IMG/VR virus record: IMGVR_UViG_3300042154_001357
Span: 1-22,120 of that record
Source of the DNA: a virus
Reading direction: 5' to 3' (one strand)
Length of the DNA stretch: 22,120 nt
Below, in pieces: positions 14,189-21,221 of the stretch. The position numbers were made by a program, and so were the translations under genes. Each line of letters starts with the position of its first letter. The stretch's first letter is position 1. Under the pieces are notes generated by a model. The model saw nothing but the letters and a program-made list of their open reading frames with translations. It was not told the origin of the DNA and made no database searches.

Positions 14189-14875
14189 TTAATAAGATAA
14201 TATGTTATAAATAGTTCCTGAAACTTTTAATCTATCTGCTATTGTAGCTATTTGTTGTTTAAGATAATCAGCTGATATTCCTAATGTAGTAGGTAAACCA
14301 ACTGGATAATATATAGTAAAACTATAAGTAACTGTATTACTATAACTTGCTCCTACATATTGTAATGCTTGTATTCCTTCATTAGCCGCATAAGAACTAT
14401 TAATATCATCAGATGAAACTAAAAAACTATTTACATCAATAACATTATTAGATATATATATAACATTTACAGAAGGTGGCTGAACAAAAGGTAAATCAAA
14501 ATATGAATTTAAAGCATATTCAAATGAAATAAGTTGAGAAGTATATTTTAATCTGTCTGTTAAACCAATAAAAACATCTTGTGTCTTATACCAATATCTA
14601 ATATCTACTGGTGTAATTCCTGCTGGTGTATCTTGTATGCTACAATAAATACTTTTATTAGTATATCTTACAAAACTATCTTTAGGATAAATAGTTGAAT
14701 TATTCCAATTAGCAGCAACGCTACCATCTTTATAATCTACAAAAAATCTAGCGTGAAGCCACTGTAAAGGATATAACAATACTTTACCCCATTTTAAATA
14801 TATTGATTGCCTTTTATTAGGCGGCATCAATTCTTCCCATCTATCTGAAAAATCTGTATTATAATTAAATGGCAT
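14189..14875 (-). CDS. Baseplate protein with a carbohydrate-binding-like module (gpI-like position)
   Basis: A 228-residue protein 1 base after the J-like gene, the position of P2 gpI. The N-terminus (about 1-50) contains KWGKVLLYPLQWLHARFFVD, probably the wedge-binding part. Residues about 56-98 have the layout of a small carbohydrate-binding module: NWNNSTIYPKDSFVRYTNKS, then IYCSIQDTPAGITP and a closing YW. The remainder is beta-rich, with a C-terminal helix (ADYLKQQIATIADRLKV). The module resembles the three repeats in the neck connector of this same phage. Glycan binding is inferred from the pattern only; the gpI relation is from gene order. Confidence 0.55.
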   Translation of the reverse strand: MPFNYNTDFSDRWEELMPPNKRQSIYLKWGKVLLYPLQWLHARFFVDYKDGSVAANWNNSTIYPKDSFVRYTNKSIYCSIQDTPAGITPVDIRYWYKTQDVFIGLTDRLKYTSQLISFEYALNSYFDLPFVQPPSVNVIYISNNVIDVNSFLVSSDDINSSYAANEGIQALQYVGASYSNTVTYSFTIYYPVGLPTTLGISADYLKQQIATIADRLKVSGTIYNILSY

Positions 14876-17060: not shown

Positions 17061-17092
17061 CAAAGATATTACTTTTTTAAGTCGTTATCAAA
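17061..17092 (-). promoter_or_regulatory. Bacteroidota-type promoter, minus strand
   Basis: On the minus strand, TTTG (17092-17089), a 20-base spacer and TATCTTTG (17068-17061) fit the Bacteroidota consensus TTTG-N19/20-TAnnTTTG exactly. The -33 half lies in the last codons of the ferritin-like gene and the -7 half directly follows its stop. A start of transcription near 17055 would leave a leader of about 17 bases before the gene at 17037, and would feed the tail completion and baseplate genes separately from terminase and portal. Confidence 0.6.
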
Positions 17093-17560
17093 GTTTAATA
17101 AAGCTGATGGCTCATTTTTGCACAACTCTAGTCTAGCTAAGAAATCTCCATATTCTCCAACACTTTTTCTTTGCTCTCCAATAAAGAAATATAAAAACTC
17201 TTCTAATATCACATCTTGTGCTTTAGCTAATTTCATTAACTCTGAATATTCTTGCATCAATAAAAACTCTGCATTAAAAGCTACTTTAAAAGCACTTTCT
17301 AAACCGCCTTCAGTATAAGTATAGTTTGTTGGCATTTGGATGTCAGGAAGCACTCCTAAATCGTTACAGAAGTCTACTAGCTTTTGGTAGTGAGCAGATT
17401 CTGCCTTAGATTCATCTAAAAAGAAACCAGCAGCACCAAAATAACCTTCATTTTGCATACAGTTAGCCAATGTTCTATACATCAGCTCTGCTTTTAACTC
17501 TCCTGTAATTCTTTTTTCAATCTCTAATATAAGATTATTGCTTAATAATGCTGTTTTCAT
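17069..17560 (-). CDS. Ferritin-like four-helix protein
   Basis: A 163-residue protein with the full ferritin layout of bacterial FtnA. Helix A has ITGELKAELMY, with Glu21 and Tyr28 at the places of E. coli FtnA Glu17 and Tyr24. Helix B is AGFFLDESKAESAHYQKL, with Glu54 and His57 at Glu50/His53, followed by DLGVLPDI. Helix C has NAEFLLMQEYSELMKLA with Glu98 at Glu94. Helix D has FFIGEQRKSVGEY with Glu129 and Gln130 at Glu126/Gln127. The position of FtnA Glu130 is Ser133, and FtnA Glu49 and Glu129 are Ala53 and Lys132 here, so one iron site is kept and others are reduced. It lies 2 bases after the portal gene, between portal and tail completion genes. Iron storage, protection from peroxide or a purely structural role are all possible. 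Confidence 0.85.
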   Translation of the reverse strand: MKTALLSNNLILEIEKRITGELKAELMYRTLANCMQNEGYFGAAGFFLDESKAESAHYQKLVDFCNDLGVLPDIQMPTNYTYTEGGLESAFKVAFNAEFLLMQEYSELMKLAKAQDVILEEFLYFFIGEQRKSVGEYGDFLARLELCKNEPSALLNFDNDLKK

Positions 17561-17562
17561 AT

Positions 17563-18846
17563 TTATACTGTTAAATCATTAATAATAGGTTCTGTTGATA
17601 TAATTTTGGTTACTGGAATACCAGTTCTTTCAGTAATGTATTTCTCATCTACTTCAAAACCTGCATTTTTTAAAGTTAATACTAAATCAGCAGTTAATTT
17701 ATTATTAGCATCTTCTTTTTGTCTAGCTTCTTCTTTTTCCTTGTCATTAGAGAATTTAAACTTCAAATCATCAGGAATAGATACACCTAAATTTCTTAGC
17801 TTAGGCAATACTTCAGCGTTCATAAAATGCTCTAAATATCTACCATCAGATATTTCTATATCTTCTAAAGATTCTTGTGCTTCATGAGTAGCACCTAATC
17901 TACCTGCTTGTGAATCCAAAGCATCAGCATGACCTAAAAGAAGCTTACTAATCTTTTTCTCACATCTTTGCTCTAAGTTATCATAACCTTGATGTCCATT
18001 ATGAGCGTGCTTAGCTTCTAAAAAGAATAACTCATCTTCAGGGTCAAAGATACCATATCCTGCACTACCCATGTCTTTCAACATATTCTCTAAGTTACCT
18101 CTTTCTAATTCAGTAGTCTTAGTAGTCTTAGCATATCTAAATGGCTGTGCAAACAACTCCACAAAATCCCCATTGTAACCTAATATATTTCTTAAGAATA
18201 TCTCATAAAGACCACATCTGTATAACAACCCGTAACCACATGGACTTACTCCATTTTCACTTGGTGTACTTGCATAAAATGTCCATTCATTATAAGGTTC
18301 TTCTCTAAAATTAATACCTTGTAAAGCATATACATAACTTACCACCTGAAGCCTATCAGGGCTTATATTATGTCTTTTAATGATTTTAACACCTGTTAAG
18401 CTGTTATTTTCTATGCCATCAAAGTTAATAAGGTTATAACCATAAAAAATAGCATCTAATGCGTAATTCATTACATCATGACACCATTGCTCTTTAAACT
18501 TCTCACTCCACTCTGCATCAATCTCATTTTCTGTATTAACAAGATTATAGTCTTTTAATAAAGTTAATCCCTTTCTTTTTTGCATACAAGCATAAACGTG
18601 TCCATTTAAAGTAGTATCTCCAAATAACCTTTGCATCATTACCCTGTGTGGATAATAAGCTAACTCCGCTTCTTGTATTGCATCTCTCCAGCCTTTAACA
18701 TCTTGTCTTATCCTTTGTAACTGTACCTTAGCAATATATTTATCTAAATGCTGCGGTGTCTCTTCTCTGAAGTTACCTTCTCCGCCACCAGCTAAAGGAT
18801 TAGCAGTAGGAAACCAATAATTCTTTATATCTGATAATAATCCCAT
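17563..18846 (-). CDS. Portal protein, Mu gp29-like (DUF935 type)
   Basis: A 427-residue portal protein of the Mu gp29 type. The N-terminal part (about 55-105) has QEAELAYYPHRVMMQRLFGD and GHVYACMQKRKGLTLL, corresponding to the conserved 'D-x-x-V-x-x-x-x-x-x-R-K' segment. The stem and clip region has an aromatic, Asn-rich core (MNYALDAIFYGYNLINFDGI, about 130-149). The C-terminal part includes NLEQRCEKKISKLLLGHADA and LGATHEAQESLEDIEISDGR (about 286-331), a pattern shared with DUF935 portals. It forms the dodecameric gate for DNA entry and exit at one capsid vertex. It overlaps neither neighbour, with 1-2-base gaps on both sides. It lacks a fused Mu gp30-like (SPP1 gp7) domain. Confidence 0.83.
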   Translation of the reverse strand: MGLLSDIKNYWFPTANPLAGGGEGNFREETPQHLDKYIAKVQLQRIRQDVKGWRDAIQEAELAYYPHRVMMQRLFGDTTLNGHVYACMQKRKGLTLLKDYNLVNTENEIDAEWSEKFKEQWCHDVMNYALDAIFYGYNLINFDGIENNSLTGVKIIKRHNISPDRLQVVSYVYALQGINFREEPYNEWTFYASTPSENGVSPCGYGLLYRCGLYEIFLRNILGYNGDFVELFAQPFRYAKTTKTTELERGNLENMLKDMGSAGYGIFDPEDELFFLEAKHAHNGHQGYDNLEQRCEKKISKLLLGHADALDSQAGRLGATHEAQESLEDIEISDGRYLEHFMNAEVLPKLRNLGVSIPDDLKFKFSNDKEKEEARQKEDANNKLTADLVLTLKNAGFEVDEKYITERTGIPVTKIISTEPIINDLTV

Positions 18847-18847
18847 T

Positions 18848-19816
18848 TTAATATGTATTTATATTTTTAACATTACTACCATATCTAATTCTTAATCCTA
18901 CATTAGGCTGTAACAAAGGAATATCTGCTGTAATAGCATCTTCTCTACCTCCTGCTGACCTTAACCATTCAATAGCATAATCAGCATTATCTTTCCTTAC
19001 CTGTGGCACGTTATTAGGAGCTATTAAGATATGTATCTTACTTAAACATAAATCCAACATTACACCTATTAACTGCTGACTTCTGTTATCTCCGTTAATC
19101 CATGTGATAGGCTGCCATGAAGTGCTAAAACTAGGTGTAATACCCGTATTAGCAACTACACAGTTATATATCTGACCACCATAGTTTACCTTATCTCCTA
19201 CTATATAAGCAGTTAAAGCATTATAAGAAGCAAAATTACTAGGGATATTATAAACTTCTACTCCACTAAAGCTATAATTAGTGCCAAGACCCCAATATGT
19301 TACTCCATTAACAACATCATTAGGCAACACGCCAACATTGTTAACAACACATTTATAAATCTTGCCATTATAAAAAATGAAATCTCCAAGAGTGTAATAA
19401 GTTTTGCTATTATAAGCAGGATATGGTATTTTAACATAATATAAAGCATATTGTGCGCCTACTAATCTCCATTTAACAGGATTCCATGCTGCTGCCACTG
19501 TAATAGCAGTAGTACACTGATATACATATCCACTATATGATACCAAAGCATCTAAAGCATAAGTGCTAGTAGCACTAAAAGCAATAGCATCTAACTCAAA
19601 TCTGTTATCGGAATAATATGTAGTAGCACCTGTCCATACATTAGTATCTGTAAACTCTTGGTTTACATCGTATTTCTGTACCAAATAACTAATTACCTCT
19701 GCCTGTGCTTCTAATTCGGAGGATAACCTTACCGCATCTCTATTGCCAGTAATTTGGTCTAATTGTGTTTTTTGAATACGTTTATTGTAATAATCGTATA
19801 ATCTTAAATATCCCAT
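18848..19816 (-). CDS. Neck connector (Mu gp36/DUF1320-like) with three inserted carbohydrate-binding-like repeats
   Basis: A 322-residue protein. Residues about 1-60 (AVRLSSELEAQAEVISYLVQ, then KYDV) and 245-322 (SQQLIGVMLDLCLSKIHILI; RKDNADYAIEWLRSAGG; GLRIRYGSNVKN) resemble the two halves of a small Mu gp36-type head completion protein, which is usually near 140 residues. Between them, three modules interrupt the fold, at about 82-120, 138-178 and 201-238. Each has the order aromatic-Tyr, G/L-D, strand, Tyr-x-G, Tyr-x-Cys, Gly-x-x-P, Trp (for example AYIVGDKVNYGGQIYNCVVA), a pattern like carbohydrate-binding module families 5/12. The protein would form a neck ring carrying outward-facing modules. 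Sugar binding is inferred. It is located between terminase and portal genes. Confidence 0.65.
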   Translation of the reverse strand: MGYLRLYDYYNKRIQKTQLDQITGNRDAVRLSSELEAQAEVISYLVQKYDVNQEFTDTNVWTGATTYYSDNRFELDAIAFSATSTYALDALVSYSGYVYQCTTAITVAAAWNPVKWRLVGAQYALYYVKIPYPAYNSKTYYTLGDFIFYNGKIYKCVVNNVGVLPNDVVNGVTYWGLGTNYSFSGVEVYNIPSNFASYNALTAYIVGDKVNYGGQIYNCVVANTGITPSFSTSWQPITWINGDNRSQQLIGVMLDLCLSKIHILIAPNNVPQVRKDNADYAIEWLRSAGGREDAITADIPLLQPNVGLRIRYGSNVKNINTY

Positions 19817-19841: not shown

Positions 19842-21221
19842 TTAATATCCATGTTTACTGTGATTATTTTTACCTAATGTGTAAGTTATTCCATTATCTC
19901 CCTTTTGATACCCTTCATAATCAACAGCAAAGGCACTACAAATGAAATAATCTAAGCAATCACTCATATGCCCATATTCCTCATACCTGATTCCATTAGC
20001 ATCAGTTTTCTTAGTCTTGCTCTTAGTACCATCAGCTCCCTGTTGCACATTACTTAAATCCTTAATAGTCTCCTTACAGCTATTATTAATAACTATCTTA
20101 ATACCCTTATGCTCATTATACATAATAGTATTTATAAACAATCCCCTAGTAAATACACTAGGATTACTTCTTCTAACCCTTAACTGCGGATTAAGCTCTT
20201 TAAGCTCGTTTTTAATAAGCCTATATAGATTATATCCCTTTTCTAGTTTAACATCCTGCTTTTGGCTCGTAGCGTCTCCTGTGATGACAAATCCTCCTTT
20301 GTGATTACCAAACCTTCTCTTTATCTCGTTTGTCATACCCTCAACAGTATTATTAGGATTTCTCATAGGTAACTCATCAATCTGCTTAGCAACCCTTCCC
20401 TCTACCTGCCATACCTGACAACTGAAATATGGATGTACGTTCTCATCAATACTTAGCCATATAGGTAAATTAGGATTTAATGTTACCAACCCTACGTGCT
20501 TATCCATATTAAACTCTTTATAAAACTCTGTACCCCTCTTTTGCTGAAAATCCCAGTTACCCTCCACAAACACCTCATACTCATATCTAGGCATATTCTG
20601 CCTTAAACTGTCTATATAGTCCTTACTTAAATGGGGATTGTCATATAGCTTAGCAGGTATATAAGCCCATTTAGGAGGTAACGTATTTTCTATGTAAGGA
20701 ATATAAAACTTATCCTTTACCCACCCCTGTGTAGGGTTACAAGTGCATAATATCTTAACAGGCACATTACCAGCTCCATTCCAAGAGCCTGACCTCTCAA
20801 TAACCTTATTAAAAGTCTCCTCCTGTATCTCGTTTATCTCATCAATACCTGCTCCATTAATCTCTAAACCCCTAAACCTATTCAGCTCTTTATCACTTGC
20901 ATAACTTTCAGCCATAAACATAATCTGACTACCATTGAATAAAGTAGCTGTCATCGTATTGTTATCCCATGTTTTGATATATTGCTGGAATCCCTCTGAT
21001 AGCAACTGCCTGAAACTCACTAAGATAGTTCTTTCAATGTTACTGTAACTAGCACGTATAATAAGCCATCTACTCTTAGGGTATTTAAAACATAAAGTAA
21101 ATAGTTCAATAAGTAACCAAAAGGACTTACCTCCCCTGATAGCACCGCCATACAAAACAATATCGTTATTTTGTAATATCTTATGTGCCTCTTTCTGTTT
21201 TGGTGTTGGGTTTACTTGCAT
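19842..21221 (-). CDS. Terminase large subunit
   Basis: A 459-residue DNA-packaging motor protein. Walker A is GGAIRGGKS (25-33); Walker B with catalytic Glu is GAGIDE (123-128); the coupling motif is CTCNP (159-163). The C-terminal RNase H-like nuclease has acidic residues at Asp259 (LSIDENV), Asp316 (VITGDATSQ) and Asp421/Asp424 (HMSDCLDYF). It cuts concatemeric DNA and drives it into the procapsid through the portal. The gene starts 2 bases after the upstream small gene stop. No small terminase subunit is recognised among the four small genes upstream, though one may lie among them or outside the window. Confidence 0.95.
   Translation of the reverse strand: MQVNPTPKQKEAHKILQNNDIVLYGGAIRGGKSFWLLIELFTLCFKYPKSRWLIIRASYSNIERTILVSFRQLLSEGFQQYIKTWDNNTMTATLFNGSQIMFMAESYASDKELNRFRGLEINGAGIDEINEIQEETFNKVIERSGSWNGAGNVPVKILCTCNPTQGWVKDKFYIPYIENTLPPKWAYIPAKLYDNPHLSKDYIDSLRQNMPRYEYEVFVEGNWDFQQKRGTEFYKEFNMDKHVGLVTLNPNLPIWLSIDENVHPYFSCQVWQVEGRVAKQIDELPMRNPNNTVEGMTNEIKRRFGNHKGGFVITGDATSQKQDVKLEKGYNLYRLIKNELKELNPQLRVRRSNPSVFTRGLFINTIMYNEHKGIKIVINNSCKETIKDLSNVQQGADGTKSKTKKTDANGIRYEEYGHMSDCLDYFICSAFAVDYEGYQKGDNGITYTLGKNNHSKHGY

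Follow-up and report, generated by a model that had tools for sequence, protein, structure and literature searches.

The question raised by positions 18848-19816 of the window, by which we mean the whole stretch of 22,120 nucleotides analyzed here (IMG/VR virus record IMGVR_UViG_3300042154_001357), is why a gene in the position of a head-tail connector should encode repeats that resemble carbohydrate-binding modules (CBMs). The gene coordinates in the first-pass annotation are right: the open reading frame occupies 19816 to 18848 on the minus strand, starts with ATG and encodes 322 amino acids, and its assignment as a Gp36-type head-tail adaptor with a CBM5/12 insert draws on the reading frame, Pfam matches, relatives and a structural model. 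The gene lies within a myovirus gene operon, flanked upstream by the terminase large subunit gene (TerL, 19842..21221, minus strand; PF03237/PF04466 in Pfam, PHROG matches and synteny) and downstream by the gene for a Mu-type portal protein (17563..18846, minus strand; PF06074, E 3e-52, and synteny), the expected binding partner. A scan of viral contigs gave 205 confirmed relatives, of which 80 were kept and 53 aligned. The portal gene was located downstream of the adaptor in 92 of 98 testable loci of the relatives, and TerL was located upstream in 80 of 94. The head operon of the window also encodes a ferritin-like protein (17069-17560, minus strand; PF00210, 1e-15), with the portal gene on one side and a tail-completion gene on the other, and relatives of this protein are present in about ten related phage loci.

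The Pfam search did not detect PF07030 (Mu Gp36) in the window protein itself, a PDB sequence search with this protein returned only weak matches to CBMs and nanobodies and none for the connector, and the NCBIfam search gave no match for the adaptor. Among the 53 aligned relatives, 43 matched PF07030 and 50 matched CBM_5_12. The PF07030 match is split into two stretches around the insert both in FPSV-S1 (1.2e-10), a phage of Flavobacterium psychrophilum with a 228 aa homologue between terminase and portal, and in lotta8-1 (5e-11), with a 190 aa homologue annotated as a head-tail adaptor from PF07030. Removal of the insert leaves a core of 132–153 aa among the relatives, mostly 132–136 aa. Natural orthologues without an insert, which occupy the same gene slot in Bacteroides phage p00, Flavobacterium phage fF4 and others, measure 137–141 aa, in agreement with the length of about 140 residues that the first-pass annotation had given as normal for a Gp36-type protein. 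Using an insert-less profile, Mu Gp36 was reached in the PDB with an E-value of 3e-4.

The AlphaFold2 model of the adaptor, based on 53 sequences, had a mean pLDDT of 89.7 and a pTM of 0.83, with the modules at about 93–97. The top VIA-align matches were JBD30 8rka_B (Z 13.9), Mu 5ydn (Z 13.8, 1.6 Å, 101 residues) and Mu 9knu_M (Z 13.6), values that may be inflated for helical bundles, although these three exceed all other matches by about 6 Z units and are in line with both sequence and synteny. The matches span residues 2–308, across the insert, and the core fold is common to Mu gpJ/Gp36 and JBD30 gp41 (PF07030; 5ydn, 9knu, 8rka; Z 13.6–13.9 over 101–111 residues). The adaptors of Mu and JBD30 lack an insert and have a length of about 140 aa, whereas the window protein carries 184 residues of CBM5/12 modules in one loop. 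The insert-less orthologue L009, predicted alone, showed the same helices and the same match to 5ydn (Z 14.0, 1.8 Å, 101 residues), and the core is therefore unchanged by the insert. Two full-length look-alikes were retrieved from BFVD, one of them named 'Bacteriophage Mu, Gp36'. The split PF07030 matches in one-module homologues, the 43 of 53 relatives with this family and the superposition of the core on Mu Gp36 thus support the earlier claim that the ends of the protein are the two halves of a Gp36.

The N-terminal part of the core, residues 1–56 (19649..19816, minus strand), is modeled with helices at residues 6–12, 16–23, 27–45 and 51–54, which are also predicted in L009 and are covered by the matches to 5ydn and 8rka_B. 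The C-terminal part, residues 241–300 (18917..19096, minus strand), begins with GDNRS, has predicted helices at 247–265 and 272–288 and is conserved in all relatives. The insertion point is located after helix 51–54 and before the helix at 247, that is, in the loop that links the second long helix to the third. Residues 301–322 (18851..18916, minus strand) were assigned to a C-terminal arm from position and conservation, and the monomer model shows them as disordered (pLDDT about 40). The C-terminal arm of the Mu adaptor sits in the portal clip (PMC11915804), and the arm of the window protein, which is alike in position, would be expected to insert there as in Mu. A connector role like that of the Mu and JBD30 adaptors is likewise expected from gene position.

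Pfam found CBM_5_12 (PF02839) in three stretches of the window protein (E 5.3e-15, 55.6 bits, cut-off 26.2). An HMM made from relatives outside the clade of the window placed the modules at residues 79–116, 132–167 and 196–234, with scores of 44.6, 43.5 and 39.2 bits, as compared to a best score of 11.6 bits in 5000 shuffles of the window protein. Each pair among the three modules was more alike than in 2000 of 2000 shuffles. Thus, based on both comparisons, we conclude that the repeats are real; their positions differ by only a few residues from the 82–120, 138–178 and 201–238 of the first-pass annotation. Behind the adaptors, the next-ranked VIA-align matches were CBM5/12 domains, which aligned separately over residues 76–121, 131–180 and 187–239. 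Each module superposes on the CBM5/12 of chitinases or phage homologues, the partners including CBM5/12 domains of phage receptor-binding proteins (1.2–2.4 Å, 42–50 residues, Z 5.5–7.8). The proposed resemblance to CBM5/12 therefore holds both for the family, with PF02839 above the cut-off three times, and for the fold, and searches of the repeats against CBM5/12 and Pfam gave CBM_5_12 and no unrelated fold.

Module 1 comprises residues 76–121 (19454..19591, minus strand; Pfam, alignment, Z 7.8 to 8fqc_Q1), module 2 residues 131–180 (19277..19426, minus strand; Pfam, Z 6.2–7.5 to the CBM5/12 of chitinases or chitin deacetylases) and module 3, which is present in some clades only, residues 194–240 (19097..19237, minus strand; HMM, tree, Z 6.4 to chitinase C 1wvv). 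The exposed Trp used by ChiA1 for chitin binding (W687) corresponds in the alignment to W111 of module 1 and to an aliphatic or polar residue in modules 2 and 3. At this position, module 1 of the relatives has F or W in 84%. The modules are similar to the CBM5/12 of chitinases and chitin deacetylases (ChiA1 1ed7, SmChiB, Vibrio COD) in the PF02839 match and in the fold over 44–50 residues, but they are predicted modules with no enzyme attached, and only module 1 has kept the ChiA1 Trp. The inventory of three modules stands, although it had overlooked a degenerate half-module before module 1, at residues 57–75 (19592..19648, minus strand), which is seen as weak HMM matches in some relatives (best in L071, 3.8e-4) and falls below the HMM threshold in the window protein itself.

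The best PHROG matches of the protein were to tail fibre families, over the repeats, which would agree with CBM repeats on a tail protein or receptor-binding protein in place of an adaptor. These matches cover the modules only, whereas the core fold, PF07030 in the relatives, the size of the de-inserted core and the position between TerL and portal all indicate an adaptor. We therefore rejected the PHROG 'tail fiber' identity and regard such a protein as barely credible. In the model the modules neither replace nor distort the core, and neither packing of the repeats into the connector nor an unrelated fold, the two outcomes named against the first-pass annotation, was seen; the interruption of the connector by three modules is confirmed. 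The protein is almost certainly an adaptor with CBM5/12 modules spliced into one loop, and its identity, the insertion site, the predicted fold of the modules and their varying number are established by sequence and structure prediction.

The adaptors of FPSV-S1 and of lotta8-1/pippi8-1 (Winoviridae), annotated as DUF1320 or 'head-tail adaptor', are true relatives with the same slot and insertion site and one degenerate CBM5/12 module. These Flavobacterium phage forms are 190–228 aa long and their single module is unmentioned in the annotation, whereas the clade of the window has three modules with clear Pfam matches. The number of modules is zero in the insert-less forms, one in FPSV-S1, lotta8-1 and L111, two in most proteins, and three in the window clade, L020/L042, L022 and L047. 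On a core-only tree the module counts required 7 changes, whereas shuffles needed 24.7; for the state with three modules, 4 changes (gain or loss) were required, at least two of them forced by starred branches, although the exact counts are soft because the core-only tree has few columns. One relative of 381 aa (L071, 4601-4900) has an extra domain of about 80 residues, unrelated to CBM5/12, where others carry module 3, and no relative of this domain was found in phages. The FPSV-S1 head gene cluster also includes, according to its annotation, a Dcm-like DNA methylase gene (L006, 17004-17918).

Identity to L005 was 48% in the insert as compared to 80% in the core, and dN/dS against L002-L004 was 0.16–0.23 in the insert as compared to 0.02–0.08 in the core. 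The insert is thus faster-evolving, or relaxed, relative to the core, yet it is under purifying selection and shows no sign of positive selection. The faster evolution, the unrelated domain of L071 at the same place and the common insert-less forms could suggest that the loop is a hotspot collecting small stable domains with little function, so that the insert would be a tolerated and mostly idle decoration. This seems quite unlikely to us, since the dN/dS values of the insert signify clear purifying selection and at least two modules have been retained across a deep clade (65 of 77 rows).

A profile scan of genome contigs with the family alignment found one relative only, which was insert-less. 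Among 395 genomes of the (host) phylum of this relative, the inserted adaptor was not found; six genomes matched the family profile, with open frames of 145–169 aa, and the five that were recovered all lacked the insert. PF07030 gave 33 matches in 27 of the 395 genomes, all unsplit and without insert, and the modules are therefore dispensable for the basic job of the adaptor. The unsplit chromosomal forms and the module-bearing forms of viromes and lytic Flavobacterium phages may represent a contrast between temperate and virulent phages, in a sample that is biased because the virome contigs were sought with an insert-bearing query.

For the role of the insert we lean, by a small margin of belief, towards an evolved Gp36-type adaptor with neck modules acting as weak, multivalent accessory glycan contacts. 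As a Mu Gp36-type protein the adaptor would form a ring under the portal, with one to three CBM5/12-fold modules and a half-module filling the loop that joins its second and third long helices. The adaptors of Mu (PMC11915804) and JBD30 (PMC11445458) are dodecameric, and it is therefore a fair inference that twelve copies would place about 36 small modules around the virion neck. The modules are probably exposed at the surface of the neck. In the T7 adaptor, the loop that connects helices 1 and 2 faces the tail nozzle (PMC6702177), and by analogy with T7 the insert would emerge from the ring on its outer side, towards the head. The modules would bind glycans of the host envelope or of the surroundings, beside receptor binding by the tail tip, and they may perhaps tether virions to mucin, chitin or capsule, as had been proposed from the first reading.

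That glycan adhesion is the main role of the insert appears to us evenly balanced. The CBM5/12 fold, the repeated gain or loss of modules, their dispensability, the 84% aromatic residues at the ChiA1 Trp position and the precedents of neck passage structures fit adhesion, whereas modules 2 and 3 without an equivalent of the ChiA1 Trp, and dN/dS well below 1 with no sign of receptor-driven diversification, speak against it. CBMs carried on the neck of lactococcal phages have been proposed to serve as an ancillary device for adsorption (PMC9692632, PMC10747895). The CBM on the neck fibre of cyanophage A-1(L) did not bind the host (PMC10966104), which warns against taking 'CBM' as proof of glycan binding. 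A 228 aa tail protein encoded after a baseplate J-like gene of the window (14189-14875, minus strand) contains one diverged CBM5/12-like module (3e-5), and is thus a second virion protein carrying the module in the same phage, with a fourth, more diverged copy. This mildly favours a shared surface-binding role. A diverged CBM5/12-like module is also found in the relative of this tail protein in L005 (11756-12460). At the sensitivity of the scan of viral contigs the tail protein had no relatives, its phage matches being at chance level.

The insert could instead be a bracing or docking element of the virion neck, which is possible though rather doubtful in our view. From the residue numbers in PMC6702177, the beta-barrel fibre dock of T7 gp11 appears to lie between helices 2 and 3, seemingly the same slot, and the podophage adaptors T7 gp11 and SU10 align over the core and leave large inserts unaligned, at low Z values of 6–7 that we treat as weak. 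The Ig domains of the roseophage R4C adaptor touch capsid and portal, and have been proposed to be structural (PMC10276861). The ChiA1 Trp missing from modules 2 and 3 and the purifying selection on the insert would also agree with bracing or docking. However, many relatives, and temperate orthologues such as fF4 and p00, manage the same task insert-free, it would be surprising for a fitted structural interface to change its module number repeatedly, and the fold of the insert is that of CBM5/12 and not the jelly-roll beta-barrel of the T7 gp11-type dock.

Returning to accessory glycan contacts, similar arrangements are known in other phages. The neck passage structures of TP901-1, Tuc2009 and phiLC3 (PMC9692632, PMC10747895) likewise have CBMs at the head-tail junction, but these are CBM15-, CBM61- and CBM4-like domains of separate fibre proteins of about 700 aa, whereas here the modules are within the adaptor. 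The long trimeric fibre with an N-terminal anchor domain that characterizes the lactococcal type differs from this 322 aa adaptor, the model of which contains neither coiled coil nor anchor domain. The R4C adaptor (PMC10276861) is likewise a ring bearing an additional beta domain at its periphery; this is a single N-terminal Ig-like domain proposed to be structural, as compared to internal CBM5/12 repeats here. The evolved Dit of lactococcal P335 phages (PMC9692632) is, as here, a conserved ring protein with a CBM in one of its loops, although that ring belongs to the baseplate and not to the neck.

Gp36 adaptors, CBM5/12 folds in phage fibres, neck-fibre CBMs, CBM inserts of Dit and an Ig-like domain on an adaptor are thus already known. 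Within the open-licence literature, no paper turned up that describes CBM repeats as an integral part of the adaptor protein. Across the adaptor family, domains of adhesion type can be carried in graded numbers (0, 1, 2, 3), with insert-less natural controls in the same slot, which makes possible a clean test of neck sugar-binding domains in adsorption. Whether neck-borne CBMs benefit adsorption is a question raised by the neck passage structures and by the neck fibre of A-1(L). The insert also explains 'DUF1320' annotations with unexplained extra length, and the adaptor loop appears tolerant of multivalent display. We suggest tentatively, at somewhat less than even confidence, that the adaptor ring has become an evolvable collar for adhesion in a large group of phages from the environment that are related to Winoviridae, in which glycan-binding modules are added or lost singly in one loop to give 12, 24 or 36 per virion without a separate fibre gene. 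A faecal phage record (L008, 3902-4315) encodes a protein of 137 aa that contains two CBM5/12 modules (5e-19); its gene lies in a tail-like context, and it is unrelated to the adaptor.
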